NCBI RefSeq assembly: GCF_024330105.1
Contig: NZ_JANDHW010000002.1
Location: 310,001 to 374,000 of the forward strand
DNA from: Coprobacter tertius
GTDB taxonomy: Bacteria > Bacteroidota > Bacteroidia > Bacteroidales > Coprobacteraceae
Length of the DNA stretch: 64,000 nucleotides
Direction of reading: 5' to 3'
The notes under the pieces: generated by a model
Databases searched by the model: none
The model's input: only the letters and a program-made list of their open reading frames with translations
What the model was told of the DNA's origin: nothing
Program-made: the position numbers and the translations under genes
In this document: positions 4,750 to 48,068 of the stretch, in pieces
How the letters are laid out: each line of letters opens with the position of its first letter
Position numbering within the stretch: the first letter of the stretch is position 1

Positions 4750-5526
4750 TTATTCCGTAATATTTTCGAAATGATAACGCCCTTTTTCTACGGTTATATT
4801 TTTATACTGGATGGCCTGTACCGGGCAATCGTGAATACATGCCAAGCATTGCAAACAATTGTTTCCCCACCGGGGAGTGGGGGAGAGATCGATATTATGA
4901 GAAGGACATACCTTAGAACATAGGCCACAGCGTATGCAATTATCATTTGCATGGAAATGTCGGGATTGTACTTGCAATTTTCTGAAAAGCGGGTTAATTA
5001 TACGGGATTTCAGAAACGCGAATTTTCCTCTGTGGAAGTCGTATAGGTTATTCGTTTTAAGACTTATTTCTTTGTTGACGTATTTTATGCGTTCCGATGC
5101 TTTTTCCAGTTTCCGGGTTTCGAGTGCTTTGCTATCAGTGTCGAATCCCGGTAATAGTATATAATTATTGGGCATCGTCACCGAAAACCCCGCATTGCAA
5201 AACATGTTTTTCCGGTCGAGGAGACGTCGGAAGATAATGTCGGTAAGTCCCGTGTCGTCGCCGCACGTGCAAACCAGGAAAATATAAGGAGGACAGTCGT
5301 AATCGAAGTTTATTGCTTTGATAAAGGATGTGATAAAAGGAGGAATCCCCCAAGAATAAACAGGGAATACAAATCCTATTTTTTCACCGGGAGATACAGC
5401 ATATTTATTTTTATACCGCAGCGACTCGATTTCATCGGGAATGAAAAATAATTTTTCATTTTGCACCTCGGCGAGTTCCCCAGCTACCCATCGCGAGTTT
5501 CCGGTACCGGAAAAATAAAATATCAT
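4750..5526 (-). CDS. EFR1-type ferrodoxin: flavodoxin-like domain plus two 4Fe-4S clusters
   Basis: 258 aa from the ATG at 5526. The N-terminus MIFYFSGTGNSRWVA is the FMN-phosphate loop of flavodoxin-like proteins. The C-terminal third carries two Cys motifs for [4Fe-4S] clusters: CIRCGLCSKVCP and CLQCLACIHDCP. This two-part layout is the EFR1 family, presumed to move electrons in anaerobic metabolism; partners are unknown. A longer reading starting at 5595 would add 23 residues, but a -7 box lies inside that extension, so I chose 5526. Confidence 0.85.
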   Translation of the reverse strand: MIFYFSGTGNSRWVAGELAEVQNEKLFFIPDEIESLRYKNKYAVSPGEKIGFVFPVYSWGIPPFITSFIKAINFDYDCPPYIFLVCTCGDDTGLTDIIFRRLLDRKNMFCNAGFSVTMPNNYILLPGFDTDSKALETRKLEKASERIKYVNKEISLKTNNLYDFHRGKFAFLKSRIINPLFRKLQVQSRHFHANDNCIRCGLCSKVCPSHNIDLSPTPRWGNNCLQCLACIHDCPVQAIQYKNITVEKGRYHFENITE

Positions 5527-5543
5527 AAGAATTGATTTTACTT

Positions 5544-5551
5544 CAAAGATA
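5544..5551 (-). promoter_or_regulatory. TAnnTTTG -7 box for the EFR1 gene
   Basis: On the minus strand this reads TATCTTTG, a full match to the Bacteroidota -7 element, 17 bp before the ATG at 5526. It lies inside the longer possible reading frame and so argues for the shorter start. Confidence 0.6.
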
Positions 5552-5716
5552 AAAAATATTTCCGAGACATAAGGCGTAAGAGTTTTTATATTCATAAAAT
5601 AGAATAAAATTTTATATGGATATTTAAAATTATATCATAGGTATTGTAAATGTGGATAAAAAAAATTTCATTTGTTTCTGTTGATAATGTTTTGCTTAAT
5701 TTATATATTTTATAAA

Positions 5717-5836
5717 ATGAAATATTCAGTCATTCTATTGTTATTTTTTCCGCTAATAACTTTGAGGCAAAAATACGATACAATCCCCCCTGTGAATCTA
5801 CTGACAAATATTGATTGGAGGGGTTACCTGTTTTGA
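5717..5836 (+). pseudogene. Short open frame with signal-peptide-like start; probable gene remnant
   Basis: 39 codons starting MKYSVILLLFFPLITL and ending IDWRGYLF. The first 16 residues look like an export signal, but the frame stops before any domain could form. Given the surrounding decayed paralogues I take it as the stump of a secreted protein gene. It could instead be a genuine small secreted peptide; nothing in the sequence decides this. Confidence 0.3.
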
Positions 5837-5995
5837 AATTATGCAGAAGGACGAAAATACTGTCACCAAAATTACTTATGCGGCTGATTAGATAACTTAA
5901 TTAGATGACTATAATATTAGCAGAAGAGGTACAGATAGGGCAAATAGATATCGAAAAATGAGTGATAATAATTTTTATTAAAAATAAATAGTAGT

Positions 5996-6508
5996 ATGAA
6001 AGTAAATATGTTGTTTGTAGCAATTGCATTAGGTTTGGCTATTCATTGTTTTGGAGGTAGTAAAATTTCTTCAGATATACCACCTCAAAAATCAGTAACA
6101 CAGTCAAAAGATACGGTTATTAATGTTTCCGAACGTTTTGCCATTTTGTACAAAAAATATGATAATCGTCTTAAGTTATGGTATAATCCATATATCATAC
6201 GTCTTAAAGAGAGAGACACGGTTAAAATAGCAAAATTTCCGTATGAAAATGGAAGTGAATTGGGTCTGTATCCCTCTCCAAGTAAAAGATTTGTTCTGTT
6301 GGATAATATTATAAGATACTATGTAGAGGATGAAGATAAAAAAATATTCTATGAAAATTATCTGTGTTGTATAATAGACCTTGAACAAAGTATTGTCGTT
6401 GTTGACAGTATGCAAATGCATAGTGAAGGAGGAGATTGGGATAAAGATGACAGGTGGGTTGATGGAAGTGAAATTATCTTTGATGGTAGTTTATTGAAGA
6501 AGAAATAG
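5996..6508 (+). CDS. Exported protein of unknown function, possibly cut short by a frameshift
   Basis: 170 aa. The N-terminus MKVNMLFVAIALGLAIHCFGG is an export signal; Cys18 could make it a lipoprotein, but the lipobox is poor. The mature part alternates short hydrophobic strands with charged turns (LKLWYNPYIIRLKERD, IARYYVED-like, CIIDLEQSIVVVDS) and ends WVDGSEIIFDG, like the last strands of beta-propeller or immunity-type proteins. I recognise no family. Just before its stop another frame opens (6490-6624) and runs to the next gene, so the original C-terminus may have been longer. First intact gene of the AT-rich island. Confidence 0.5.
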   Translation: MKVNMLFVAIALGLAIHCFGGSKISSDIPPQKSVTQSKDTVINVSERFAILYKKYDNRLKLWYNPYIIRLKERDTVKIAKFPYENGSELGLYPSPSKRFVLLDNIIRYYVEDEDKKIFYENYLCCIIDLEQSIVVVDSMQMHSEGGDWDKDDRWVDGSEIIFDGSLLKKK

Positions 6509-6624
6509 ATAAACTTCCCGGAAGTACATCGATGTTAGATGTTAAGCATCTGAACGGACATGCTGATCATTTGCACAGTCAGGGCTTCCATAAAACAACA
6601 ATCCCAATAAAAAAAACGTTATGA
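6490..6624 (+). pseudogene. Out-of-frame C-terminal remnant joining the 5996 gene to the 209-aa gene
   Basis: A 44-codon open stretch in the -1 frame relative to the preceding gene, running from just after an in-frame stop at 6487 to a TGA that overlaps the next ATG (ATGA). It reads EEEIDKLPGSTSML, then LNGHADHLHSQGF, and ends IPIKKTL. The tight overlap with the following start suggests it was once the real end of an upstream gene, either the 5996 gene before a one-base loss or a deleted one. It has no start codon or ribosome site of its own. I do not recognise the sequence. Confidence 0.4.
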
Positions 6625-7250
6625 AAAGAACTATTTTATTCAGTGTTATCGTGTTGCTTTACACAACCGCAAGCTATTGCAATCCGGTAAGTTTTTCCAA
6701 ACTTATTGAAGCTGTCCCCATCGACAGTACGATGGTCGGAGCACCAAATCTATGCGAATTAGATTCGTTCCGCTGTGATTATAATGATCCGACTTTTTTG
6801 TTCTGGGACACGGATAAAGACATTGAAAACAGGTATCGGTTAAACGACTATTTTGATTACGATACCCTTAAGGACCAACTTAAAAATGAATATTCATTGT
6901 TGCGTGAACCAGGAGCTTTCATTTTTGCCAAGCGTCTTCCCAAAGCGGGAAACCATGAGCTGCTGCTTTATTACATCAAGCGTTTTACTTCAGCCTTTCC
7001 CAACGAAGAATTTCCTCAATGGGTATTGCTCAGTGTAGATAGCGAGGGGAACGTAATAAAAGCATTTGTAGTGGCAGAAGTAGATTGTCAGGACAATGAC
7101 AGAATTACTCAAATATTATTCCAGATACGGGATGATGGTTTCTTGATTAAATTTTTTGTAGGAGTGTTAGAAGATGATCCCGAGTGGTATAATGAAGACT
7201 ATATGTATTGTCGGGATACCAAAATCGTACCTTTTACCGATTTGGAATAA
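6621..7250 (+). CDS. Exported 209-aa protein, copy 1 of a duplicated pair
   Basis: Signal peptide MKRTILFSVIVLLYTTASYC, then a mature domain of about 190 aa. It is clearly homologous over its full length to the 209-aa protein at 12286. Shared blocks are FSKLIEAVPIDSTM, LNDYFDYDTLKDQ, FAKRLPKAGN, LLLYYIKRF, FPQWVLLSV, VVAEVDCQ, DDPEWYNEDYMYCRDT and FTDLE. Paired Cys residues in the mature part suit a periplasmic disulfide protein. No named family is recognised. It is followed 18 bp later by a small membrane-protein gene, the same order as in copy 2, so the two products probably act together. Confidence 0.65.
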   Translation: MKRTILFSVIVLLYTTASYCNPVSFSKLIEAVPIDSTMVGAPNLCELDSFRCDYNDPTFLFWDTDKDIENRYRLNDYFDYDTLKDQLKNEYSLLREPGAFIFAKRLPKAGNHELLLYYIKRFTSAFPNEEFPQWVLLSVDSEGNVIKAFVVAEVDCQDNDRITQILFQIRDDGFLIKFFVGVLEDDPEWYNEDYMYCRDTKIVPFTDLE

Positions 7251-7268
7251 GATGAGAAGATATTAGAT

Positions 7269-7575
7269 ATGAAGATACTGAAAATATATACCGGTTGTTT
7301 TGGGCATATTGTGGGGGGCAGCCTTTGCAGTGTTGGAGGGATTGGAACCTTGCTTAGATGAAAATTTTCGCTCTTCGTTTTTCATACCCGATAAAAGTTT
7401 TTTCATACAATTACTGATGATTTATACTTTTATAGGAGCCTTTTGGGGTTGGTGCATTGGGTTTGGTGTTGCAGGAATATGCCGGAAAATGTTTAAGAAA
7501 AATATTTCTAATGAACTTAATTCTAAAAGTGATATAATAACTCCTGTTGGGAAATTAGTACAATATGAAAAATAA
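7269..7575 (+). pseudogene. Small membrane protein, copy 1, with one-base frameshift
   Basis: The ATG at 7269 begins MKILKIYTG, but after about 11 codons the frame that matches the paralogue at 12937 is the +1 frame: WGAAFAVLEGLEPCLDENF, then FIPDKSFFIQLLMIYTFIGA, a second hydrophobic segment, and a polar tail KNISNELNSKSDIITPVGKL. Removing one base in the run around 7296-7302 (TTTTGGG) would join the two. The intact part has two membrane segments around the conserved EPCLDEN motif. It may be inactive, or start internally at a non-ATG codon. Its last codons overlap the start of the next gene by 11 bp. A sequencing error cannot be excluded. Confidence 0.6.
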
Positions 7576-8350
7576 AAAAATATTTATTGCTTTTATATTT
7601 CTATTATGGCTCGACGCGAATATATTTGCACAGAGCTTGAAGTATCAAAATCTAGATACATTCAACTGCATGGAACTCAATTGTGTGGTAAATAAATTAT
7701 TTGATATATCACACGTAGATATTGTTAATCAACCTGTTTTTATTTGGAGCCCGAATTATTCGGAAAAACATATATTCAACATCTCCTTTGACGAGAAATG
7801 TCACACTTCGCTAGACACTATTCTATTATTCAAAAATAACTCGAATCGAGATAGTCGGATATTAATATTTAAAACACAAAGCTATGAAAGGGTGAATGCT
7901 TACCAAACAAGGGTCGTTGGCTCTCATTTTAGCACGGCCACGATAAGTGTGGCTATCTTCTCGAAAGTTGACGACGGTTGGCAGCTTAACGCTTTTCAGA
8001 AATACTTTACCGATTCTGGATTGTTTGGCGGGGAGGGTAAAGAGGGGATTGGAAAATTTTCAGTTTTAAAGATAGACGGTCAGATATATCTCTCTTTTAA
8101 AAGACCTGTTGCCGGAAATAATGGCTTTAACGAGGGGATAGAAGAACTCTATTATGTAGACGGAGATTTGCCATGCAAAATACTTCAAAATGTATTTAAA
8201 CATATTTATTATCAAGAAAATGGAGAAAAGACAACTACTCAAAAGATAGATACCATAAAATCGACAAAAGAGTTTATATGGACTACAAACAACCTTAATA
8301 ACGATAAAAAATATATTTTTAATCGTAGTTATTGTCAATATAATATGTGA
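7565..8350 (+). CDS. Exported protein of unknown function
   Basis: 261 aa. Signal peptide MKNKKIFIAFIFLLWLDANIFAQ with an AxA-like cleavage region, then a beta-rich mature domain: INQPVFIWSPNYSEK-like strands, RILIFKTQSY, ISVAIFSKVDDGWQLNAFQKYF, FSVLKIDGQIYLSF. The central stretch with GWQLNAFQKYFTDSGLFGG followed by GNNGFNEGIEELYY resembles the all-beta fold of small envelope proteins in Bacteroidales immunity loci, but I cannot name a family. The start overlaps the preceding small membrane-protein gene by 11 bp, so translation is probably coupled. AT-rich like its neighbours. Confidence 0.55.
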   Translation: MKNKKIFIAFIFLLWLDANIFAQSLKYQNLDTFNCMELNCVVNKLFDISHVDIVNQPVFIWSPNYSEKHIFNISFDEKCHTSLDTILLFKNNSNRDSRILIFKTQSYERVNAYQTRVVGSHFSTATISVAIFSKVDDGWQLNAFQKYFTDSGLFGGEGKEGIGKFSVLKIDGQIYLSFKRPVAGNNGFNEGIEELYYVDGDLPCKILQNVFKHIYYQENGEKTTTQKIDTIKSTKEFIWTTNNLNNDKKYIFNRSYCQYNM

Positions 8351-8424
8351 CGATGATATGGTTTCGTTAATTAACTTATTGTATCAGTGGGCAAATTTAA
8401 GTACTTGCCTACTTGGCACTGAAA

Positions 8425-8497
8425 GAAAATATATCAAAAGAACTAAATAGCCACTCATCGATAAAAACGCCGAAAGGTGAGTTATTACAAAATTAAC
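8425..8497 (+). pseudogene. C-terminal remnant of a third copy of the small membrane protein
   Basis: The frame reads LKENISKELNSHSSIKTPKG and ends LLQN before a TAA. It aligns with the tail of the copy at 7269 (KKNISNELNSKSDIITPVGK): same length, same NISxELNSxSxIxTPxG pattern. Upstream, the frame hits a stop within about 10 codons and the membrane segments are absent. This is therefore a truncated copy left by deletion or recombination, lying between the 7565 and 8510 genes. Confidence 0.6.
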
Positions 8498-8509
8498 ATA
8501 GAATATTAT

Positions 8510-9397
8510 ATGAAAAATTGCTTCTGGGTCCTTTTTAGTTTACATATATTGCTAATATCCTGTTCAGGATCTTACAAATCAAAGAAAGATATAAACTTTA
8601 TCAAAAAGAATGCTATTTTGGATGTTAATAATGGTTGTACTGAAGATGAAATCACAGACAGAAATAGTGTAACTATAGCCTATCGAGATAGTTTACTCTC
8701 TCGATACGACGGCTTAAAATATTTTAGTTATACAAAAAGCGTTGGAGATGATTCGTATTCTATGGAAATCGAAACATTTCCAGATACAATAAGTGTAAGT
8801 GAAGAAAACGGGATTCGTTATACGGTAATAAAAAGAAACGGATTGGTTTTGGATGTCCGACAAAAAGGAGATCTGTTTTCTAATGGTCGAATTTATTGCA
8901 AACATTCCGAATATAATGACAGTTGTTTGTCTACAAAAGTCACATGGTTTCTTGATGATACGATAAAGTTATTGAGCTATGAAGAGACGGCAGCCTTTAT
9001 AAAAGATTCTATTTATGACATCAATTATGATGGAGTCAATGATTTAGTTCTAACTTACTCTATAGGTTCATCTACAAATAGCGATATATACTTATTCGGC
9101 CATAATGGAATGGTGTTGAGAGAGAAAGTGCTCAGGAACTATTTTCCCCTTTTGGATGGAGAATTTATACAGTCTGATAGTTATAGGTCAGGGATTGTGT
9201 TTTTTCAAAAGTTAAAATGGAATGAGCTGCAAATAGATACATTAGAGCAGATTTATTACGACGTTGCTGATAAACGATCGTATATAGTACCTCCTTTGGA
9301 AATAGATGAAAATGGCACTTATGTTAAAAATAAAGAAGCGATGCCCATTAATAAAATGTTAGATAAATGCTACTTAAATGCTTTAAGCAAATATTAG
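8510..9397 (+). CDS. Lipoprotein of unknown function with an FG-GAP-like calcium motif
   Basis: 295 aa from the ATG at 8510. The leader MKNCFWVLFSLHILLISC gives Cys18 as the lipidation site; an in-frame upstream start (8477) would bury the signal peptide. The mature part is beta-rich. Near residue 170 is YDINYDGVNDLVLTY, a DxNxDGxxDL loop as in FG-GAP/VCBS repeats and calcium-binding loops, followed by SDIYLFGHNG. A single such motif is not enough for a full propeller. The function is not recognised; in this setting an envelope-anchored immunity or binding role is a guess. Low GC like the rest of the island. Confidence 0.55.
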   Translation: MKNCFWVLFSLHILLISCSGSYKSKKDINFIKKNAILDVNNGCTEDEITDRNSVTIAYRDSLLSRYDGLKYFSYTKSVGDDSYSMEIETFPDTISVSEENGIRYTVIKRNGLVLDVRQKGDLFSNGRIYCKHSEYNDSCLSTKVTWFLDDTIKLLSYEETAAFIKDSIYDINYDGVNDLVLTYSIGSSTNSDIYLFGHNGMVLREKVLRNYFPLLDGEFIQSDSYRSGIVFFQKLKWNELQIDTLEQIYYDVADKRSYIVPPLEIDENGTYVKNKEAMPINKMLDKCYLNALSKY

Positions 9398-9426
9398 TTT
9401 GACCGAAATATAAAACTGTTAATATT

Positions 9427-10856
9427 ATGACCTTAAAAACAAAAATCGAAAGATCGGGTAGTACTGTTGAATTATGTGCAATGATGAATTATCGACAGAG
9501 TGATCCCGTTACATGGAAGAAGGTGACATACACTCCCGAGGAGGTGAAAGCCAGAAAACACATGACGTTAGCGGACAACAGTGAAACTATTGCCACCGGC
9601 TTGTCATGCCAATACACCTTTACCAAAAAAGACGAAGGCAAGTATGTAAGATTCCATGCTTATGTCAATGCAATACAAACATGCGAGCAAATCGTTGTCT
9701 ACTATGTTGGGCCCGTTTGTAAAACAGAAATTCGTATAGCGGCGTAGATGCTGATATAAAAGAGGCTGTGGCAGGAGATGTCATTAAATTATCGGTAGAA
9801 TACTGTCGGCAGGCGAAACCAGAAGTAGTTATACCTGAAGAAAAAGTGACTCAGGCTACAAAAGACAGCGTAAAATGGATGGTGAAGATTGACAATCAGG
9901 AGGAGCGTCTTGTCATTAACGATGAGGTGATCAAAGGTGGTCGTATTTCATTGGAAGTGCTGGAAAAGTGGGCTGGTAAAGAGATTACTATAATGCCATA
10001 CTTGGTGACAGTGTCAAAAAAGAAAGCTGTCACTATCATAGTAAAAAAAGTTTTTCCTATGTTGATATTGCAGGGAAAACGCAGAAAAGGGATGAATCGT
10101 AGCAATTCTGAAACTGCTGCTGATTTACTCTATGGCGATTATACAATGGATGAATCCGGATTTAATAAATTGAAACAACAATTGATTTCCATCTTTGTCA
10201 GTGAAAAGAAGAAAAAACAGGAAGACGCTGAAAAATATGCTGACCAAAGAATTAATAAAGTGAGATCTTTTGCACGTAAATCAGATGACAATCTATTTAA
10301 AATATTCAACAACGAGATTGAATGGTATTCTATGGGAAAATTAGAAGATGTAGCACACAAAATGGTTGCAAAGATGAAAGCTAATAAAGGTGGGGAGTTT
10401 TCAGATGCAGTTTTAACAGGAAAAGTGAAAGAACATGACAGTTCAAAGTCGTTTATAAATCATGTTAAAAAAGCTATAATCGAATATCTGAGCAAAAACA
10501 AAGGTCGGTTTGAAAACTTAAATATAACAGATGGCTCGACAGGTGTTCTTTATCAATATTTATTAGATCATGGCGTTCAAACTCCAACATTCAATGATAA
10601 AATAAGTGGTTTAGGAATTACGATACATGATGTATGGGCATATCAGGTTTTTATTACGGATTATGCTATAAACGGAAATAACTTTACGGCTAAATTGGAA
10701 TTTATTTATTGGGATCATTTTGGACTTGATTATCCTGACATTGTAAATTATGATAATGACATTTTTTATAGTTGGTTTGTTTTACAGCATTTTAAAAATT
10801 ACCAGCCATTTATCACAAAAATAATAATAAATGAAACTTGCAATGGAACTTTTTAA
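9427..10856 (+). pseudogene. DUF3289-type toxin-like protein split by a one-base frameshift
   Basis: Two adjacent frames form one protein of about 476 aa. Part one (9427-9747, from ATG) has an Ig-like module: RSGSTVELCAMMNY, PVTWKKVTYTPEEVKARKHM, then KYVRFHAYVNA. At 9721-9724 the A4 run appears one base short; adding one A continues NRNSYSGVDADIKEAVAGDV into part two. Part two has a second module (DSVKWMVKIDNQEER, WAGKEITIMPYL) and a C-terminal region of about 230 aa: EFSDAVLTGKVKEHDSSKSF, IHDVWAYQVFITDY, WDHFGLDYPDI and WFVLQHFKNYQPFI. I recognise the last region as DUF3289, a family of unknown function seen at the C-terminus of polymorphic-toxin or secretion-effector-like proteins. No signal peptide. 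It may be dead, or read by frameshifting. Confidence 0.6.
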
Positions 10857-10860
10857 ACGG

Positions 10861-11478
10861 ATGATCACAAAAATCATTTTATTATTGTTACTTCCTGCCA
10901 TTTGTCATGGATGCAGCGATGAAAATGTAAGTATAGAACCGATTGGTGATTCAGGCCGGTACAAAATGGGGAATGACGAATTTCAATACTATACCGTAGC
11001 TAATTATAAGAATTGTTCACCGGATTCTTTACTGAAAATACTATGCAATTTTTGCCGACAAAAACACTTGACAAAGTCTGTTGCGCAAAATGATTTTGTA
11101 TCTATTTTCTTTTACGAAAAAACATTATTCGCAGATTATCAGGAACACATAAGTGATGCTATACGCAGTGAAACGGGAAGTATTGATAAATACAGCCGTA
11201 ATCTAATTGCCAAAATCTATTATTTAAAAATAGCCCATGATAAAAACGTAGTTTTAACAAAAATCATATACAATAAAGATTCAATAATCTTACTAAAAAG
11301 AGATACTTTAGAAATGTTTCGAGATGATGACAGAGCATTAGAGAATAAATGGGATGAAGCATTGTGGAATGAAAATGGAGCTTATGCACCACCTGTATCT
11401 GGAAATACTCCTGGTGGAGAGCTACCTGCTAATTTATATATTTTCGAAAAAGGTAAAACACCCATTCCGACAAGATAA
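10861..11478 (+). CDS. Lipoprotein directly behind the DUF3289 gene; candidate immunity protein
   Basis: 205 aa from the ATG at 10861, 4 bp after the DUF3289 stop; in-frame ATGs at 10831 and 10843 would overlap it. The leader MITKIILLLLLPAICHGC ends in Cys followed by SDEN, a reasonable lipidation site in Bacteroidota although the -3 residue is unusual. The mature part has FQYYTVANYKNCSPDSLLKI, FVSIFFYEKTLFADYQEHI and KIYYLKIAHDKNVVLTKIIY, and a Gly/Pro-rich tail. No family recognised. An envelope lipoprotein encoded immediately after a toxin-like gene is the usual place for an immunity gene, but this is inference from position only. Confidence 0.55.
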   Translation: MITKIILLLLLPAICHGCSDENVSIEPIGDSGRYKMGNDEFQYYTVANYKNCSPDSLLKILCNFCRQKHLTKSVAQNDFVSIFFYEKTLFADYQEHISDAIRSETGSIDKYSRNLIAKIYYLKIAHDKNVVLTKIIYNKDSIILLKRDTLEMFRDDDRALENKWDEALWNENGAYAPPVSGNTPGGELPANLYIFEKGKTPIPTR

Positions 11479-11480
11479 AA

Positions 11481-11567
11481 ATGAAAATACTGTATAAAAT
11501 GAAAGTTATAAAGATATATATAGCCGGATGTATTTTATGTGCCTTACAATCGATGGAACCGAGATAA
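11481..11567 (+). pseudogene. N-terminal remnant, probably of the small membrane protein
   Basis: 28 codons: MKILYKMKVIKIYIAGCI then LCALQSMEPR and stop. From the second ATG (11499) it resembles the start of the 7269 copy (MKILKIYTGC, then WGAAFAVLEGLEP) both in protein and in DNA (ATATATA-CCGG-TGT-TTT). The conserved CLDEN half is missing. I read it as a deletion remnant; it could be chance similarity in AT-rich DNA. Confidence 0.35.
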
Positions 11568-11568
11568 A

Positions 11569-11970
11569 ATGAAAAAGTTAATTATAAATTCAGGGATTAC
11601 AGTTGGGGTAACTTTACTCCAATTCATGTTACTGTTAAGTCTGATGCATCTATTATATTTAGTACGCGACGCATATGTTCATTCCGTAAATATTGATTTG
11701 TATTGGGGACGTAATCTATGGTTCGGTTCAAGGTATCTCTTTTTACCTTCATTTACGCTTGCGAATATCGCTGTTTTATTCATAAATCGTCTTAAGATAG
11801 TACTTTTGATTAATGCATTATTACTGGTATATGTATCGTATATGTGGTTAGGAACCCATGCGTCTTACCCCTACAGGAGTTTAGCGATATATGTAATATT
11901 TATTGTATTATTTTGTATTGGTGCCTGTTTCATATATCAAATAAAAATTAAGACACGCCCGCCTGAATAA
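11569..11970 (+). CDS. Integral membrane protein of unknown function
   Basis: 133 aa from the ATG at 11569 (MKKLIINSGITVGV), 1 bp after the preceding remnant's stop; a longer start at 11539 would put charged residues before the first membrane segment. Four hydrophobic helices can be drawn: residues 6-32, about 55-75 (around FLPSFTLANIAVLFI), 77-95 (KIVLLINALLLVYVSYMW) and 103-125 (LAIYVIFIVLFCIGACFIY), with a basic C-terminal tail. No family is recognised. As part of the island it may be a membrane immunity protein, which is speculation. Confidence 0.55.
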   Translation: MKKLIINSGITVGVTLLQFMLLLSLMHLLYLVRDAYVHSVNIDLYWGRNLWFGSRYLFLPSFTLANIAVLFINRLKIVLLINALLLVYVSYMWLGTHASYPYRSLAIYVIFIVLFCIGACFIYQIKIKTRPPE

Positions 11971-12285
11971 TAAGTAACAAAAATGAAAAGCCTTTTTAGT
12001 ATCAAAAAAACAAATATTTCAGAGACGAATAGCGGAACCTGCATAGAAGTGTTTATGTATTTTTATATCTAGAATCAGATTATTTATTAATATTTAAAAA
12101 TAATATTGTTGTAAATGTAAATAAAAAAGATTTTTTTTGTTATAATATATATTAATAATATTATATAAAAAGAGGCAGAATCGAAGGCTAATTTACAATA
12201 AACCGCTTATCTTGATTATCTTGTATTATTTACATTTAACGGGAAAATGATTTTAAAATTTTATAATTGAATAAATTAATCCGTA
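11971..12285. other. AT-rich spacer before copy 2 of the duplicated pair
   Basis: About 315 bp. It contains a 29-codon frame at 11983-12072 (MKSLFSIKKTNISETN...), most likely a remnant. An AT-rich leader at 12091-12133 matches 5621-5668 in 22 of 25 positions over its best stretch (12109-12133 with 5644-5668). No RNA gene, terminator or full promoter was recognised. Confidence 0.4.
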
Positions 12286-12915
12286 ATGAAACGATCGGTT
12301 GTAATTATCGTCGCCCAAGTGTTTTTTATGACAGTAAGTTATTCTCAATCGATAAGTTTTCAAAAACTTATCGAATCGGTTCCTATCGATAGTTCTACTA
12401 TAGGAAGGTATGATTTATATGAGTTGGATTCATTGCAATACGACTTTAATTTTAATTGGAATGCTTTGGCTTGGGATATAAATAAAGATATTAAAAACGA
12501 ATATGGATTAAATGACTATTTTGATTACGACGCATTCAAGGATCAGATTAAACATCAGTATTCATTATTGCATAGGCAGGGGAGGTTTATTTTTGCCAGG
12601 CGTCTTCCTAAAGTGAGAAACCGTGAACTGTTGCTTTATTATATAGAACGTTTTCATTCTTTTAAAGATAAAGATAAATTTCCCCAATGGGTGTTGCTCT
12701 GTGTAAATAATGAGGGTAAGATTAAGAAAGTATTAGTTGTGGCGGAGGTCGATTGCCGGGAGCTCGACCAGATTTGCCAAACTTTATTTCTGACGCAAGA
12801 AGATGGTATTTTGATTAAAGATTTTTTGGGACCGTGGGAAGGCGATCCCGAGTGGTATAGTCCGGAATATTTGTACTGTCGGGATACAAGATTTGTTTCT
12901 TTTACCGATTTGTAA
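12286..12915 (+). CDS. Exported 209-aa protein, copy 2 of a duplicated pair
   Basis: Full-length paralogue of the gene at 6621, same length. Signal peptide MKRSVVIIVAQVFFMTVSYS, then FQKLIESVPIDSSTIG, YGLNDYFDYDAFKDQ, FIFARRLPKVRN, LLLYYIERF, FPQWVLLCV, VVAEVDCREL, GDPEWYSPEYLYCRDT and FTDL. Divergence is spread along the whole protein, so the duplication is not recent. The spacer to the next gene (12919-12936) matches that of copy 1 in 16 of 18 bases, showing that the pair was duplicated as a unit. Family and role unknown; probably periplasmic. Confidence 0.65.
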   Translation: MKRSVVIIVAQVFFMTVSYSQSISFQKLIESVPIDSSTIGRYDLYELDSLQYDFNFNWNALAWDINKDIKNEYGLNDYFDYDAFKDQIKHQYSLLHRQGRFIFARRLPKVRNRELLLYYIERFHSFKDKDKFPQWVLLCVNNEGKIKKVLVVAEVDCRELDQICQTLFLTQEDGILIKDFLGPWEGDPEWYSPEYLYCRDTRFVSFTDL

Positions 12916-12936
12916 TGAGATGAGAAGATATTGAAT

Positions 12937-13167
12937 ATGAAGTTTCTGAAATATATATTGATTATTTTAGGTACATTATCAGGTGCAGCACTTGCTGTAA
13001 TGGAGGGAACCGAACCTTGTTTAGACGAGAATCTTATTTCGTCGGCTTTCATCCCTGATATGAGTTTTTTTATACAAATATTGATTATTTATATTTTTAT
13101 AGGAACGATTTCGGGATGGGCTATTTGGTTTTGTATTTCGGGAATATATCGAAATTTTTTTCGGTAA
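12937..13167 (+). CDS. Small membrane protein, copy 2
   Basis: 76 aa from the ATG at 12937; a TTG two codons earlier is unlikely. Two hydrophobic segments, roughly residues 5-22 (YILIILGTLSGAALAVM) and 44-66 (FFIQILIIYIFIGTISGWAI), bracket the loop EGTEPCLDENLISSAFIPDM that is conserved in copy 1. Unlike copy 1 it lacks the polar NISxELNS tail and ends NFFR. Both termini are predicted on the same side of the inner membrane. The function is not recognised; its fixed position behind the 209-aa exported protein suggests a partner. Confidence 0.55.
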   Translation: MKFLKYILIILGTLSGAALAVMEGTEPCLDENLISSAFIPDMSFFIQILIIYIFIGTISGWAIWFCISGIYRNFFR

Positions 13168-13401
13168 CGATAATAGAGCGGGATTTTTTAATTTCAATGT
13201 AGAATTTAATCATCGATAGTAGAGCAATGGATCGATACTATATATTCCATTGAGGGTATACTTACAACTAAACTTAAAAATTATCCTTGTTCTATTTTTT
13301 TTATTATTGATAATGAGGAATTTAACTATTATTGTTTTATAAAAAACATAAACTATAACAATAGATAACTCCCGGGTTACTAAAATTTTTCATTCATTAT
13401 A

Positions 13402-13466: not shown

Positions 13467-14045
13467 ATGGTAAAAACAAGAGAAAAGCTTGTTGATGTAG
13501 CTCGTCAATTGTTCGCTCGGGTAGGGATAGAAAATACGACGATGAATGATATTGCCATAGCATCGAATAAGGGACGCCGCACATTATATACCTATTTTAA
13601 AAACAAGAACGAGATATACCGGGCGGTTGTCGAATCGGAGTTGAAACATCTTTATCAGCGTCTTTGTAATGTCGTAAATCGGGATCTTCCCCCTGAAGAA
13701 AAACTGGTGACATATATTTCTACTCGTTTCGAGGCGATGAAAGAAACTGTTTCCCGGAACGGTTCTTTGAGGGCGGAGTTTTTCAGGGATATTTGGAAAG
13801 TGGAGCAGGCCCGGAAAAATATCGATGCGCAGGAAGTAGAATTATTGAAGAGGATTTTACAAGAGGGAGTAGCAGGCGGAGTATTTCAGATGCCGAACGT
13901 TGCCGTTACGGCAACCATATTGCATTATTCATTGAAAGGTCTGGATGTTCCTTATATCCGTGACAATTTTTCTGATTTGAGTGTAGAACGGTTTCGTTTG
14001 AAAGAATACATAACCGATTTTATATTGTACGGAATAAAAAAATAA
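13467..14045 (+). CDS. TetR/AcrR-family transcriptional regulator
   Basis: 192 aa. The N-terminal helix-turn-helix is canonical: REKLVDVARQLFARVGIENT, TMNDIAIASNKGRRTLYTYF, KNKNEIYRAVVESEL. The C-terminal ligand domain (residues 60-190) is divergent, as usual. It lies 18 bp before a FabH-type synthase and FabG, so it probably senses an acyl-CoA or acyl-ACP and controls this small fatty-acid unit, by analogy with FabR/FadR-type TetR proteins. The ligand is unknown. Confidence 0.9.
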   Translation: MVKTREKLVDVARQLFARVGIENTTMNDIAIASNKGRRTLYTYFKNKNEIYRAVVESELKHLYQRLCNVVNRDLPPEEKLVTYISTRFEAMKETVSRNGSLRAEFFRDIWKVEQARKNIDAQEVELLKRILQEGVAGGVFQMPNVAVTATILHYSLKGLDVPYIRDNFSDLSVERFRLKEYITDFILYGIKK

Positions 14046-43322: not shown

Positions 43323-44018
43323 ATGAAGTACGCTGTAATAGCGGCGGGAGAGGGGTCCCGACTGGTAGGGGAAGGAGTAAAAGATCCGAAGCCTTTGGTA
43401 AAAATTAATGGAGAAGCGATGATCGATCGTCTTATACGTATTTTTATCGAAAACAAGGCTGAATCGATAAATATCATTATTAATTCGGAAATGCAGGAAG
43501 TGAGACGACATCTTGATTCGTTGCAGCTTCCGGTGCCCTTGCATGTAGAAGTGAAATCCACTCCCAGTTCGATGCATAGTTTTTTTGAATTACGGGAGTG
43601 GTTGCGTGGCGGAAGGTTTTGTCTTACGACTGTTGATACGATGTTTCGTGAAGATGAATTTTCATCCTATATATCCCGGTTCGAAGAGAGTGCCGGAATC
43701 GGAGGTCTAATGGCTGTTACCGATTTTATCGATGATGAGAAGCCGTTATATGTTGAAACAGATAAAGATTTGAATATAAAGGGTTTCAGAGATAATGTCT
43801 ATGATAATGCCCGATATATTTCTGGAGGAGTTTATGGCCTAACCGAACCGGCAATTGATATTTTGGAAAGGGCTATGCGGGACAATGTTTCCCGTATGCG
43901 GAATTATCAGCGTCGTCTGGTTTCGGAAGGTATGCAATTAAAAGCATATCCTTTTACAAAAATTATCGATGTAGATCATGCCGGAGATATCGAAAAAGCA
44001 GCCCGGTTCGTTAAATGA
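43323..44018 (+). CDS. Nucleotidyltransferase (NTP_transferase-like)
   Basis: 231 aa. The N-terminus MKYAVIAAGEGSRLVGEGVK with DPKPLVKINGEAMIDRLIRI is the nucleotide-binding signature of sugar-phosphate or polyol nucleotidyltransferases; the Asp in CLTTVDTMFRED fits the metal site. Such enzymes make CDP- or other NDP-activated small alcohols. First gene of the inositol-lipid cluster; I infer that it supplies or modifies an activated headgroup, but this step is not established from sequence. Confidence 0.85.
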   Translation: MKYAVIAAGEGSRLVGEGVKDPKPLVKINGEAMIDRLIRIFIENKAESINIIINSEMQEVRRHLDSLQLPVPLHVEVKSTPSSMHSFFELREWLRGGRFCLTTVDTMFREDEFSSYISRFEESAGIGGLMAVTDFIDDEKPLYVETDKDLNIKGFRDNVYDNARYISGGVYGLTEPAIDILERAMRDNVSRMRNYQRRLVSEGMQLKAYPFTKIIDVDHAGDIEKAARFVK

Positions 44019-44028
44019 AATTGAAAAT

Positions 44029-44922
44029 ATGGAAGATCATATAAGGATAGCCGCAGTACGCAGAGCAGGTGCATACTCACCCAATCATATTGGGAACGAT
44101 GCCGCCATATTCAGTCAGACGTTGCAATGTTTGCATAATGAAGGATATACGATTACCGAATACAGCGAAGAAGAGTTTCAGGTAGCAGATATTGCGGAAG
44201 ATGTCGTGATAAATATGTGCCGTGAAATGGCTTCTATTTCGAAACTCCAACGGCTTGAAAAAGAAGGTAAGATCGTTTTGAATTCCGGTTTCGGGATTGA
44301 GAATTGTACCCGTGAAAAAATGACTCGTCTGTTATTGGAAGCTAAAGTACCTTCACCCGAAAGTATTATAGTATCTACAGATGAGGATGTCCTCCCGTTG
44401 CTTCATGCCGAACGATTTGTGAACTGTTGGATCAAACGAGGAGATTTTCATGCCATGCATAAAGAAGATGTCAGTTATGTACGTCATCCTGAAGAAGCGA
44501 TTGAAATATTGCGGGAATATGCATTGCGTGGGATCAGCCGGGCTGTTATAAATCGTCATCTCGAAGGCGATTTGGTAAAATTTTATGGGATCGCCGATAG
44601 CGATTTCTTTTATTGGTTTTACCCGTTTGATATGAATCATAGTAAATTCGGCTATGAACAGATTAATGGGAAAGCGGTAGGAATCCCGTTCTCGATCGAT
44701 GAAATGCAATCGATTTGCCGAAAAGCGTCGGAAGTATTGAATGTACAGGTGTACGGAGGTGATTGTATTATATCTCCCGAAGGTGATATATGTATTATCG
44801 ATTTCAACGATTGGCCGAGTTTTGCTCCTTGTCGGGATATCGCTTCGATACATATTGCACGCAGCCTCGATTTGGCGATAAAGAAAAAACGGGTACGGCA
44901 TATGACTGAAGCCAGAAAATGA
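44029..44922 (+). CDS. ATP-grasp-like protein of the inositol-lipid cluster
   Basis: 297 aa from the ATG at 44029 (MEDHIRIAAVRRAGAYSPNH); an earlier in-frame start would overlap the preceding gene by 41 bp. ATP-grasp-type features: RLLLEAKVPSPESIIVSTDE, CWIKRGDFHAMHKEDVSYVR, SRAVINRHLEGDLVKFYGIA, and the metal-binding end GGDCIISPEGDICIIDFNDW. ATP-grasp enzymes join a carboxylate to an amine or thiol through an acyl-phosphate. Its substrate is unknown, but conservation between the nucleotidyltransferase and the phosphatidyltransferase ties it to the lipid pathway. Confidence 0.75.
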   Translation: MEDHIRIAAVRRAGAYSPNHIGNDAAIFSQTLQCLHNEGYTITEYSEEEFQVADIAEDVVINMCREMASISKLQRLEKEGKIVLNSGFGIENCTREKMTRLLLEAKVPSPESIIVSTDEDVLPLLHAERFVNCWIKRGDFHAMHKEDVSYVRHPEEAIEILREYALRGISRAVINRHLEGDLVKFYGIADSDFFYWFYPFDMNHSKFGYEQINGKAVGIPFSIDEMQSICRKASEVLNVQVYGGDCIISPEGDICIIDFNDWPSFAPCRDIASIHIARSLDLAIKKKRVRHMTEARK

Positions 44923-44926
44923 TTTT

Positions 44927-45844
44927 ATGGAAAACGGGAAAGAGAAGATAACATTACGTTCGACATTAAAGTCGATGGATACCGAAGAGACGATCGATTT
45001 ATGGTTTTATCGTCCTATCGGATATGTGTGGGCTTTGTTGTTCAGGCGTTTGGGTATATCCCCGAATGCGGTTACCATTGCGTCTATTTTTATCGGGATA
45101 GCTGCCGGTATTCTGTTCTATTTCGATAACCTCATGTATAATGTGGCAGGAATGTTATTGCTTATATGGGCGAATTCTTTTGATAGTGCCGACGGCCAGT
45201 TGGCCCGTATGACGGGAAAATATTCTCGGTTGGGGCGTATACTCGATGGTTTGAGCGGAGACCTTTGGTTTATCACTATTTATATCGCTTTATGTTTGCG
45301 ATTGATGAATGAAGGATGGAATGTTTCGGTATTTGCGTTAGGGGCTATAGCCGGATATTTCCATGCACAACAAGCGTCTATGGCCGATTATTATCGCAAT
45401 TTTCACCTGTTTTTTGTAAAGGGAAAGAGCGGATCGGAATTAGAAGATATGTCACAACTCGAACAAAATTTCAAAAAGCTAACGTGGAAGAAAGATTTTA
45501 TGACAAAACTCGTACAATTTTTTTACATCGGTTATACGAGAACTCAGGAACGTCTTACTCCTAATATGCAGGAATTACGTTCGATCATCAGAAGCAAATA
45601 CGGTGACAATGTTCCCGAATGGCTGAGGGTACAATTCAGAGCTAAAAGTTTACCATTGATGAAGTATACCAACATGCTTTCGTTCAATACGCGGGTAATA
45701 GCATTATTTATATCGTTGTTTTTGGATGAAGTATGGCTTTATTTCGTTTTTGAGCTAACGGTATTGAATATTATGTTGATATATATGAGAATGCGTCACG
45801 AAAAGATTTGTGACGATTTTGTAAAAAAACTGACCGCTTTATGA
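44927..45844 (+). CDS. CDP-alcohol phosphatidyltransferase (probable phosphatidylinositol-phosphate synthase)
   Basis: 305 aa membrane enzyme. It carries the family motif with all acidic metal ligands: DSADGQLARMTGKYSRLGRI followed by LDGLSGD (D-x2-DG-x2-AR-x8-G-x3-D-x3-D). Several membrane helices surround it (e.g. VTIASIFIGIAAGILFYF, IALFISLFLDEVWLYFVFEL). In Bacteroides the homologous gene next to inositol-phosphate synthase joins inositol phosphate to CDP-diacylglycerol; that role is likely here. The stop overlaps the next start (ATGA). Confidence 0.88.
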   Translation: MENGKEKITLRSTLKSMDTEETIDLWFYRPIGYVWALLFRRLGISPNAVTIASIFIGIAAGILFYFDNLMYNVAGMLLLIWANSFDSADGQLARMTGKYSRLGRILDGLSGDLWFITIYIALCLRLMNEGWNVSVFALGAIAGYFHAQQASMADYYRNFHLFFVKGKSGSELEDMSQLEQNFKKLTWKKDFMTKLVQFFYIGYTRTQERLTPNMQELRSIIRSKYGDNVPEWLRVQFRAKSLPLMKYTNMLSFNTRVIALFISLFLDEVWLYFVFELTVLNIMLIYMRMRHEKICDDFVKKLTAL

Positions 45845-46542
45845 GGGTGAAAGGTATAATTTTCGATTACGGCGGAACGATCGATAGTGACGGTATACAT
45901 TGGAGTGAGATTTTGTGGGAAGCTTACTACAAATATAAAATACCTGTAAGTAAAGAGATTTTTCGGGAAGCGTATGTGTATGCTGAAAGAGCTCTGGCGC
46001 ATACGGTTTATATACAACCGGAGCATAACTTTTATCACATGTTAAAGATAAAGGTGGAGATTGAGCTTAAATACCTTGTTGAAAATAAGATTCTCGATAT
46101 CGATTATTCGAAATATTGTGAAGATATTTCTCGATTCTGTTATGATCGTGCTCATATGTCGGTTAAAAAAGCTGAAAATATTATATCTCAATTATATGCA
46201 AAATATCCGATGGTACTTGTTTCTAATTTTTATGGAAATATACAAACGGTTTTAAATGATTTCGGAATCGGAAAATATTTCGGTAAAATTATTGAATCGG
46301 CAGTTGTCGGAGTGAGAAAACCCGATCCGCAGATTTTTCGTCTTGGCGTGGAGGCTTTGGGTCTAAAGCCGGAGGAAACGGTCGTCGTTGGCGATAGTTA
46401 TAAGAAAGATATACTTCCCGCAACCTCTATCGGTTGTGCTGCGATATGGTTGAAAGGAAAGGGTTGGACCGATGAAGAGGATAAGATCGCTTATGAACAA
46501 ACAATTGATACTATTGTTAAATTAAAAGAACTTTTGTTGTAA
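45841..46542 (+). CDS. HAD-family phosphatase of the inositol-lipid cluster
   Basis: 233 aa. HAD motif I is FDYGGTIDSDG (nucleophile Asp with the second Asp replaced by Gly, and further acidic residues close by); motif II is MVLVSNFYGN; motif III/IV is RKPDPQIFRLG and VVVGDSYKKDILPA. The second Asp of DxD being Gly is unusual and may reduce or change catalysis. By analogy with Bacteroides it should remove phosphate from phosphatidylinositol phosphate. Overlaps the phosphatidyltransferase gene by 4 bp. Confidence 0.82.
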   Translation: MRVKGIIFDYGGTIDSDGIHWSEILWEAYYKYKIPVSKEIFREAYVYAERALAHTVYIQPEHNFYHMLKIKVEIELKYLVENKILDIDYSKYCEDISRFCYDRAHMSVKKAENIISQLYAKYPMVLVSNFYGNIQTVLNDFGIGKYFGKIIESAVVGVRKPDPQIFRLGVEALGLKPEETVVVGDSYKKDILPATSIGCAAIWLKGKGWTDEEDKIAYEQTIDTIVKLKELLL

Positions 46543-46635
46543 TAAATGGCAATGGGAATAGAGGATATATAAAGGCTTAAATGTTCTTTATCACTTTAAA
46601 AATGGCTGAAAGTTCGTATTTAAAAGTAAATAAAG

Positions 46636-46643
46636 TAACTTTG
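46636..46643 (+). promoter_or_regulatory. TAnnTTTG -7 box upstream of inositol-phosphate synthase
   Basis: TAACTTTG in the 224-bp gap between the HAD phosphatase and the synthase gene. It implies a separate transcript with a leader of about 115 nt. No good -33 match. Confidence 0.5.
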
Positions 46644-46766
46644 TAAATAATTGTTGTGAAAACCTTTTTGGGATAAGAAAAAACAATATATATTTAACTA
46701 AAATTTGATGGAAATCATCATTCAACATTTTATTCAACTTGAAAAGTTGTATTAAATAAAAAGATT

Positions 46767-48068
46767 ATGGAAAAAATTAATGAGGAAAAAGCTGAGGGTA
46801 AATTAGGCGTACTTTGTGTAGGTTTAGGAGCTGTGACTTCAACTTTTATGACAGGGGTTTTAATGGCTCGAAAGGGGTTGGCAAAACCAGTCGGATCTAT
46901 GACTCAATACGATAAAATTCGTGTAGGTAAAGGAGCTGATAAACAGTATAAGCATTATGGAGAAATCGTATCGTTAGCCAAACTTGATGATATCGTATTC
47001 GGAGCTTGGGATGTTTATCCGGCAAATGCATATGAATCGGCGATCAATTGTGAGGTATTAAAAGAAAAAGATATCGAACCCGTAAAAGACGAATTGGAAA
47101 AGATTGTTCCCATGAAGGCTGCTTTTGATCATAATTATGCCAAACGTCTCGATGGCGACAATGTAAAGAAATGCAAAGATCGCTGGGATATGACCGAGCA
47201 GTTGAGAGAAGATATCCGTAAATTCAAAGCTGAAAATAATTGCAATCGTATTGTCGTTATCTGGGCTGCTTCTACCGAAATATACGTACCGGTTTATGAG
47301 CCGGTTCACGGTAGTCTTGCAGCTTTGGAACAAGCGATGAAAAACGATGATAAGGAACATATCGCTCCTTCGATGTGTTATGCTTATGCTGCATTAGCCG
47401 AAGGCGCACCTTTTATTATGGGGGCACCTAATACAACCGTAGATATTCCCGCTATGTGGGAAATGGCTGAAAAAACCAAAATGCCTATTGCCGGAAAAGA
47501 TTTCAAGACCGGTCAGACATTGGTTAAATCGGGATTTGCACCGATCATCGGTACACGTTGTCTCGGCCTTTCGGGATGGTTTTCGACCAATATACTCGGT
47601 AATCGCGATGGCTTGGTATTGGATGAGCCGGCAAACTTCCGTACCAAAGAAGTTAGTAAATTGTCTACATTAGAGTCGATACTCGTACCCGAAGAACAGC
47701 CCGATCTCTATACCGATTATTATCATAAAGTGCGTATCAATTATTATCCTCCCCGTAACGATAATAAGGAAGGCTGGGATAATATCGATATTTTCGGTTG
47801 GATGGGATATCCTATGCAAATAAAGATAAATTTCCTTTGCAGGGATTCAATTTTGGCAGCTCCTCTTTTGCTCGACCTCGTATTATTGAGCGATTTGGCT
47901 GCACGTGCAGGACGTTATGGTATACAACGGTTCTTGAGTTTCTTCTTGAAGAGTCCAATGCATACTGAAAACGAAATTCCTGTAAATCATCTTTTCCAAC
48001 AATATGTTATGCTGAAGAATGCCATTCGTGAAATGGGCGGATATGAAGCCGATGAAGAGATCGATTGA
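46767..48068 (+). CDS. myo-inositol-1-phosphate synthase (MIPS)
   Basis: 433 aa. Converts glucose-6-phosphate to inositol-1-phosphate with NAD. LGVLCVGLGAVTSTFMTGVL is the NAD-binding loop. VFGAWDVYPANAYESA, VIWAASTEIYVPV, GAPNTTVDIPAMWEM, AGKDFKTGQTLVKSGFAPII and the C-terminal GWDNIDIFGWMGYPMQIKI are MIPS blocks, including the catalytic lysines in GKDFKTGQT. It supplies the headgroup for the neighbouring phosphatidyltransferase. Separately promoted but adjacent to the cluster. Confidence 0.94.
   Translation: MEKINEEKAEGKLGVLCVGLGAVTSTFMTGVLMARKGLAKPVGSMTQYDKIRVGKGADKQYKHYGEIVSLAKLDDIVFGAWDVYPANAYESAINCEVLKEKDIEPVKDELEKIVPMKAAFDHNYAKRLDGDNVKKCKDRWDMTEQLREDIRKFKAENNCNRIVVIWAASTEIYVPVYEPVHGSLAALEQAMKNDDKEHIAPSMCYAYAALAEGAPFIMGAPNTTVDIPAMWEMAEKTKMPIAGKDFKTGQTLVKSGFAPIIGTRCLGLSGWFSTNILGNRDGLVLDEPANFRTKEVSKLSTLESILVPEEQPDLYTDYYHKVRINYYPPRNDNKEGWDNIDIFGWMGYPMQIKINFLCRDSILAAPLLLDLVLLSDLAARAGRYGIQRFLSFFLKSPMHTENEIPVNHLFQQYVMLKNAIREMGGYEADEEID

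Follow-up and report, generated by a model that had tools for sequence, protein, structure and literature searches.

What is a decayed array of small exported and membrane genes, grouped around a toxin-like gene, doing in the genome of Coprobacter tertius? The locus lies at 5600–13170 of the 64,000-nucleotide stretch analysed here (the window), and it bears on a wider matter, as the emergence of orphan immunity gene arrays in gut Bacteroidales has been called unsettled (PMC12247911). A sequence-only reading of the window had likened it to a decayed array of immunity genes, an acquired islet around a toxin, and this picture was supported by its G+C content, its absence from sister species and its broken effector. 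In our view, the locus is probably an acquired T6SS effector-immunity islet, now orphan, whose surviving genes shield the envelope from the T6SSs of neighbours. The best explanation of the observations is that envelope-located immunity genes are retained in an orphan islet of Coprobacter tertius while the effectors decay.

The toxin-like gene had been assigned to DUF3289 before any search. The domain was recovered by its profile (PF11692, E = 4.5e-28, 99 bits against a cut-off of 25, profile positions 4–264 of 272), and alignment with four distant members showed that its core, D..GLD..D and W..LQH, is kept. However, the ORF first picked out covers only the 3′ portion of a larger gene (9427–10856, + strand) encoding an N-terminal T6SS module and the DUF3289 toxin domain. 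The ORF at 9427–9747 and the beginning of the DUF3289 ORF (9768–10856) match one continuous protein (L007/L011) at 48% and 51%, respectively, and are thus halves of a single gene that a frame change near 9.74 kb interrupts. A 608-aa homologue of solved structure (PDB 9jg8) contains part of this upstream module. DUF3289 is structurally homologous to colicin M and is a cell-wall-targeting T6SS effector domain; in the E. coli periplasm it is toxic, causing cells to round up, and is neutralized by DUF943 (PMC11148199). A DUF3289 protein of Aeromonas jandaei is a bona fide T6SS effector (PMC12135965). By analogy with these relatives, the colicin M-like domain of the window effector would degrade lipid II and be toxic in the periplasm (PMC11148199). 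In a Treponema succinifaciens plasmid, a 78-aa ORF (L033:3526–3762) corresponds to an isolated C-terminal piece of DUF3289 and is preceded by an entire DUF3289 gene with its putative antidote.

A pattern scan of 84,980 genomes retrieved the N-terminal module from three Bacteroidales MAG contigs. In one of them (L011) it directly follows TssR, in another (L012) a DUF4123 adaptor gene lies upstream of it, and in a Tannerella MAG effector (L013:2595–4148) TssD, the same module and Peptidase_M91 are fused. Given these neighbours and fusions, it is most plausibly an effector module of Bacteroidota T6SSs, and the locus ties a colicin M-like DUF3289 weapon to it. The proposal that the locus as a whole is an undescribed system is therefore not supported, since the toxin has a known T6SS effector domain, the module is tied to T6SS genes and orphan effector-immunity islets are already known as a kind of locus.

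No T6SS apparatus was recovered to serve this effector. Neither TssC nor a Phage_base_V (VgrG-type) spike was found in the window genome (3.31 Mb, 99.97% complete) or in the four sister species, and no tss genes lie around the islet. TssD was likewise not found in the window genome or in the sister genome G002, the two tested, and the same model does match other Bacteroidales. The family consists of a single genus with five genomes, and one genome was searched per species, so other strains may carry a T6SS. This leads to an alternative in which the islet is an orphan effector cluster that is still live, being intact in other strains, where a T6SS on an integrative element serves it. Gut Bacteroidales often carry their T6SSs on ICEs (PMC4714493) and the toxin domain core is intact, yet no apparatus was detected in any of the five species and, as described below, the effectors of two separate islets are broken. 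We consider this alternative very unlikely.

If the locus is instead an orphan islet, the genes around the effector should be antidotes, and each of its effectors would once have had an exported, lipoprotein or membrane antidote close by. All of the genes A–G and the B–C pairs are on the + strand, and every array gene encodes an N-terminal hydrophobic segment or membrane helices, as expected of antidotes to envelope-acting toxins. Directly behind the toxin, four bases past its stop, starts gene F (10861–11478, + strand), which encodes an exported 205-aa protein with an export signal and is the putative DUF3289 immunity gene. The proteins encoded at this position in Pantoea, Treponema and Streptomyces also carry an N-terminal signal or anchor. 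F has no significant similarity to the immunity candidates of these three genera, no DUF943 match was obtained for it in Pfam and the Pantoea DUF943 protein was not among the similar pairs. Gene G (11569–11970, + strand) encodes a polytopic membrane protein homologous to the product of a gene that overlaps the end of the L012 effector, which has the same module (BLASTP 2e-6; z = 10), and is a putative orphan immunity gene to a membrane-acting effector. Gene A (5996–6508, + strand; exported, 170 aa) is another putative orphan immunity gene, discussed below with its paralogue.

The remaining single genes are D (7565–8350, + strand), encoding an exported 261-aa protein of no family, and E (8510–9397, + strand), encoding a 295-aa lipoprotein-like exported protein. 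E showed a faint match to the XAC2610-related domain; at E = 0.02 it falls below the cut-off and serves as a lead only. XAC2610 itself is the inhibitor of a peptidoglycan hydrolase effector (PMC10933484). The predicted structure of E, built from a single sequence (pLDDT 35), was set aside. No relatives of D, E, F or G were found in plasmids, and PDB searches with A, B, D, E and F returned nothing of weight. The lack of a recognized family for D and F, and the faintness of the one for E, weigh against reading the array as antidotes. Nevertheless, A–G are putative antidotes, and they may also confer protection today.

The most conspicuous feature of the array is a two-gene unit that had been noted as repeated at 6621–7575 and 12286–13167. 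The repetition was borne out: B1 (6621–7250, + strand) and B2 (12286–12915, + strand) are exported proteins of 209 aa each with 56% identity, and each is directly followed by C, a small membrane protein of 76–78 aa with two helices. The two C copies are 63% identical over 72 residues and both contain the EPCLDEN loop reported for this gene. At the DNA level, the B–C copies align in register with 73–74% identity over ~690 bases. The second unit is intact, including C2 (12931–13167, + strand), but C1 in the first unit (about 7269–7575, + strand) is not: a single-base length difference near 7283 places its start and body in different frames. Fragments of the second gene had also been described between the copies. 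One (8377–8490, + strand), which derives from the 3′ end of a third C gene and contains an in-frame stop, is certain on sequence comparison (score 77 against C1, with a shuffle maximum of 42 and none of 2000 shuffles reaching the score). The other (11499–11565, + strand), perhaps from the 5′ end of yet another C gene, is weak (DNA score 41 against a shuffle maximum of 36; 12 of 2000 shuffles equal the protein score). The frame changes in the effector and in C1 could be assembly errors.

B is under purifying selection (B1/B2 dN 0.29, dS 1.28; dN/dS about 0.23); the corresponding values for C1/C2 are dN 0.24 and dS 0.88. As the earlier reading had anticipated, the pair matches no family in Pfam, PHROGs, NCBIfam or PADLOC, nor was it found in any other genome searched. 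Relatives of B were not detected in plasmids, IMG/VR, GTDB contigs (pattern search) or the order and phylum samples (393 Bacteroidales and 396 Bacteroidota genomes), and IMG/VR contained none of C. Both B and the N-terminal effector module were absent from all four sister genomes of the genus. A Foldseek match for B (best E 0.02, TM 0.26) was discarded; the model had been built from a two-sequence alignment (pLDDT 43). The islet is not a known anti-phage system, as the PADLOC search retrieved nothing of weight. Since B–C has no relative beside any effector, its role is assigned from its company and its anatomy: it is a candidate two-part antidote, with periplasmic B and membrane C, against an envelope-acting effector. 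With C1 broken, one B–C copy may no longer work, which counts against a fully retained immunity function.

Alternatively, C, alone or with B, could itself be the DUF3289 antidote, kept in multiple copies for dose, an option that does not exclude the islet reading. The immunity protein of the A. jandaei effector, encoded downstream of it, is a 95-aa membrane protein that has three helices and a signal peptide (PMC12135965), and several copies of the 76–78-aa two-helix C lie around the toxin. However, the gene coupled to the toxin is F and not C, and we regard this option as quite unlikely.

The duplication extends upstream of B. A leader of ~200 bases at 5514–5720, comprising the 5′ end of the divergent ferredoxin-type neighbour gene and the intergenic region, recurs in decayed form at 11976–12173 (local alignment score 127, shuffle maximum 93); it is the one duplicated leader that was found. 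Because a leader with the 5′ end of a chromosomal neighbour precedes both B genes, leader-B–C looks older than the rest, and dS between B1 and B2 is far above that between A and its paralogue A′ (0.28). B–C might accordingly be a resident envelope pair unrelated to toxins, with effector cassettes inserted between its copies, which is again compatible with an islet of immunity genes. A resident pair would be expected at this locus in relatives, but it is absent from all relatives searched, sister species and order and phylum samples alike, and it shares the low G+C and the exported or membrane anatomy of the other islet genes. Residence is thus an unlikely origin. Under the orphan-islet reading, the locus would have grown as the leader-B–C segment was duplicated and cassettes were gained between its two copies.

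The surroundings of the locus argue for acquisition. Its G+C was 33.0%, the lowest of any 7.57-kb stretch of the window, against 39.3% elsewhere; a comparison of the composition of 5.6–13.2 kb with that of its flanks had been proposed as a check. To the right, the TetR-type gene (13467–14045, + strand), FabH, FabG and RluD are conserved in all five species of the genus, and the islet is absent beside the TetR-type gene in the other four. In G003, TetR is the neighbour, at a distance of about 0.26 kb, of the gene that lies left of the ferredoxin-type gene, and in G002 an unrelated 321-aa DUF3089 gene (L025:4853–5818) stands between the ferredoxin-type gene and TetR. The 7.5-kb islet is acquired, and the interval between the ferredoxin-type and TetR genes may be a variable insertion spot. 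No tRNA was found near the islet and, as stated in the sequence-only reading, no recombinase was seen, either in a Pfam scan of the ten flanking genes or among the larger ORFs of the window inspected by eye. Elsewhere in the window (43323–48068), ORFs judged by eye only resemble an inositol-lipid synthesis set: a nucleotidyltransferase, a CDP-alcohol phosphatidyltransferase, a HAD phosphatase and an inositol-phosphate synthase-like protein.

The module was also detected at two further sites of the window genome, both at 25–28 kb of another contig (G000:C2; L028). They belong to a second islet (G000:C2:24257–28966; L028:9257–13966) with a G+C content of 34.0%. It contains, in order, the lipoprotein gene lip168, a first effector, an amidase piece, a gene for a 292-aa lipoprotein, a 5′-truncated second effector and A′. 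Both effectors carry the module and both are broken, one split and the other truncated. The first combines the module with a lambda-type lysozyme domain (PDB 1am7, 4.5e-11), and the split-off amidase piece is Tae3-like (2.4e-18 to PDB 4hz9, which we take to be Tae3). A′ starts 82 bases behind the second effector remnant and is 73.5% identical to A (dN 0.15, dS 0.28).

Two stretches of DNA are shared between the islets. In the window, 5817–5898 is 94% identical to L028:9689–9770, the 3′ end of lip168, of which a 3′ remnant (5817–5891, + strand) persists; 5901–6511 is 84% identical to L028:13368–13969, which starts at the end of the second effector and includes A′. The effectors lie between the matched stretches in the second islet, and only two bases separate these stretches in the window. 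On the simplest view, with the flanks shared and the effectors missing between them, the window copy would have lost its effectors by deletion and kept A. This suggests that A was left behind after deletion of its effectors, and the two junctions would set the order of events between the islets. For the origin of orphan immunity arrays, shared DNA flanking effectors that are present in one islet and missing in the other offers a testable deletion model.

Breakage in both islets is also what would be expected of a pure relic, in which the genome once had a T6SS or its cargo region, has since lost the apparatus and is left with two decaying islets that serve no function. The broken effectors, the C fragments, the frame-changed C1 and the truncated lip168 fit this account. 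Against it, A, B1, B2, C2, D, E, F and G are all open, dN/dS of B is about 0.23 at dS >1 and the damage falls on the effectors, with antidote-type genes mostly spared. We therefore find it doubtful that the islet is functionless.

Taken as an orphan islet with retained immunity, the locus would have begun with effectors that joined the shared N-terminal module to a cell-wall-targeting toxin domain. The effector genes would then have broken. The antidote-type genes A, B, D, E, F and G have remained open, and their likeliest function now would be acquired interbacterial defence, protecting the cell from the T6SSs of neighbouring Bacteroidales. More tentatively, and as a possibility that we would not press, B–C may be a new two-part immunity family, and the two islets of one genome may show an orphan immunity gene coming into being, with a donor islet holding effectors between lip168 and A′ and a derived copy keeping A in a lineage with no detected T6SS. 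We offer B, C, F and G, unrecognized envelope proteins, as immunity candidates.

Several known systems invite comparison. The GA1–GA3 T6SS effector-immunity regions (PMC4714493) likewise vary in effector-immunity content, and relatives of the module occur behind TssR, near DUF4123 and fused to TssD; in contrast to those loci, no tss genes surround the window islet or were found in its genome. The DUF3289–DUF943 pair (PMC11148199) and the A. jandaei effector (PMC12135965) share the toxin domain with the window gene, as well as a gene for an exported or membrane protein coupled behind it, but the delivery module in the window is different, F has no DUF943 match and the effector is broken. In the orphan arrays of the V. 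cholerae T6SS large cluster (PMC8189183), immunity genes also outlast lost or replaced effectors and truncated effectors lie among them; a T6SS stands beside the array there, unlike in the window genome, where no apparatus was found. The islet is not classed as an rAID of Bacteroidales (PMC12247911), since no tyrosine recombinase was seen; as for conserved intergenic motifs, one duplicated leader is all that was found. It also differs in still holding broken effectors and in encoding exported, lipoprotein or membrane proteins. B–C is a family with no detected relatives, and the islet as a whole would operate in the manner of Bacteroidales AID/rAID arrays and of the V. cholerae arrays. With rAIDs it shares co-oriented, short, low-G+C immunity-type genes away from a T6SS and divergent copies of one immunity gene within a single array (PMC12247911).
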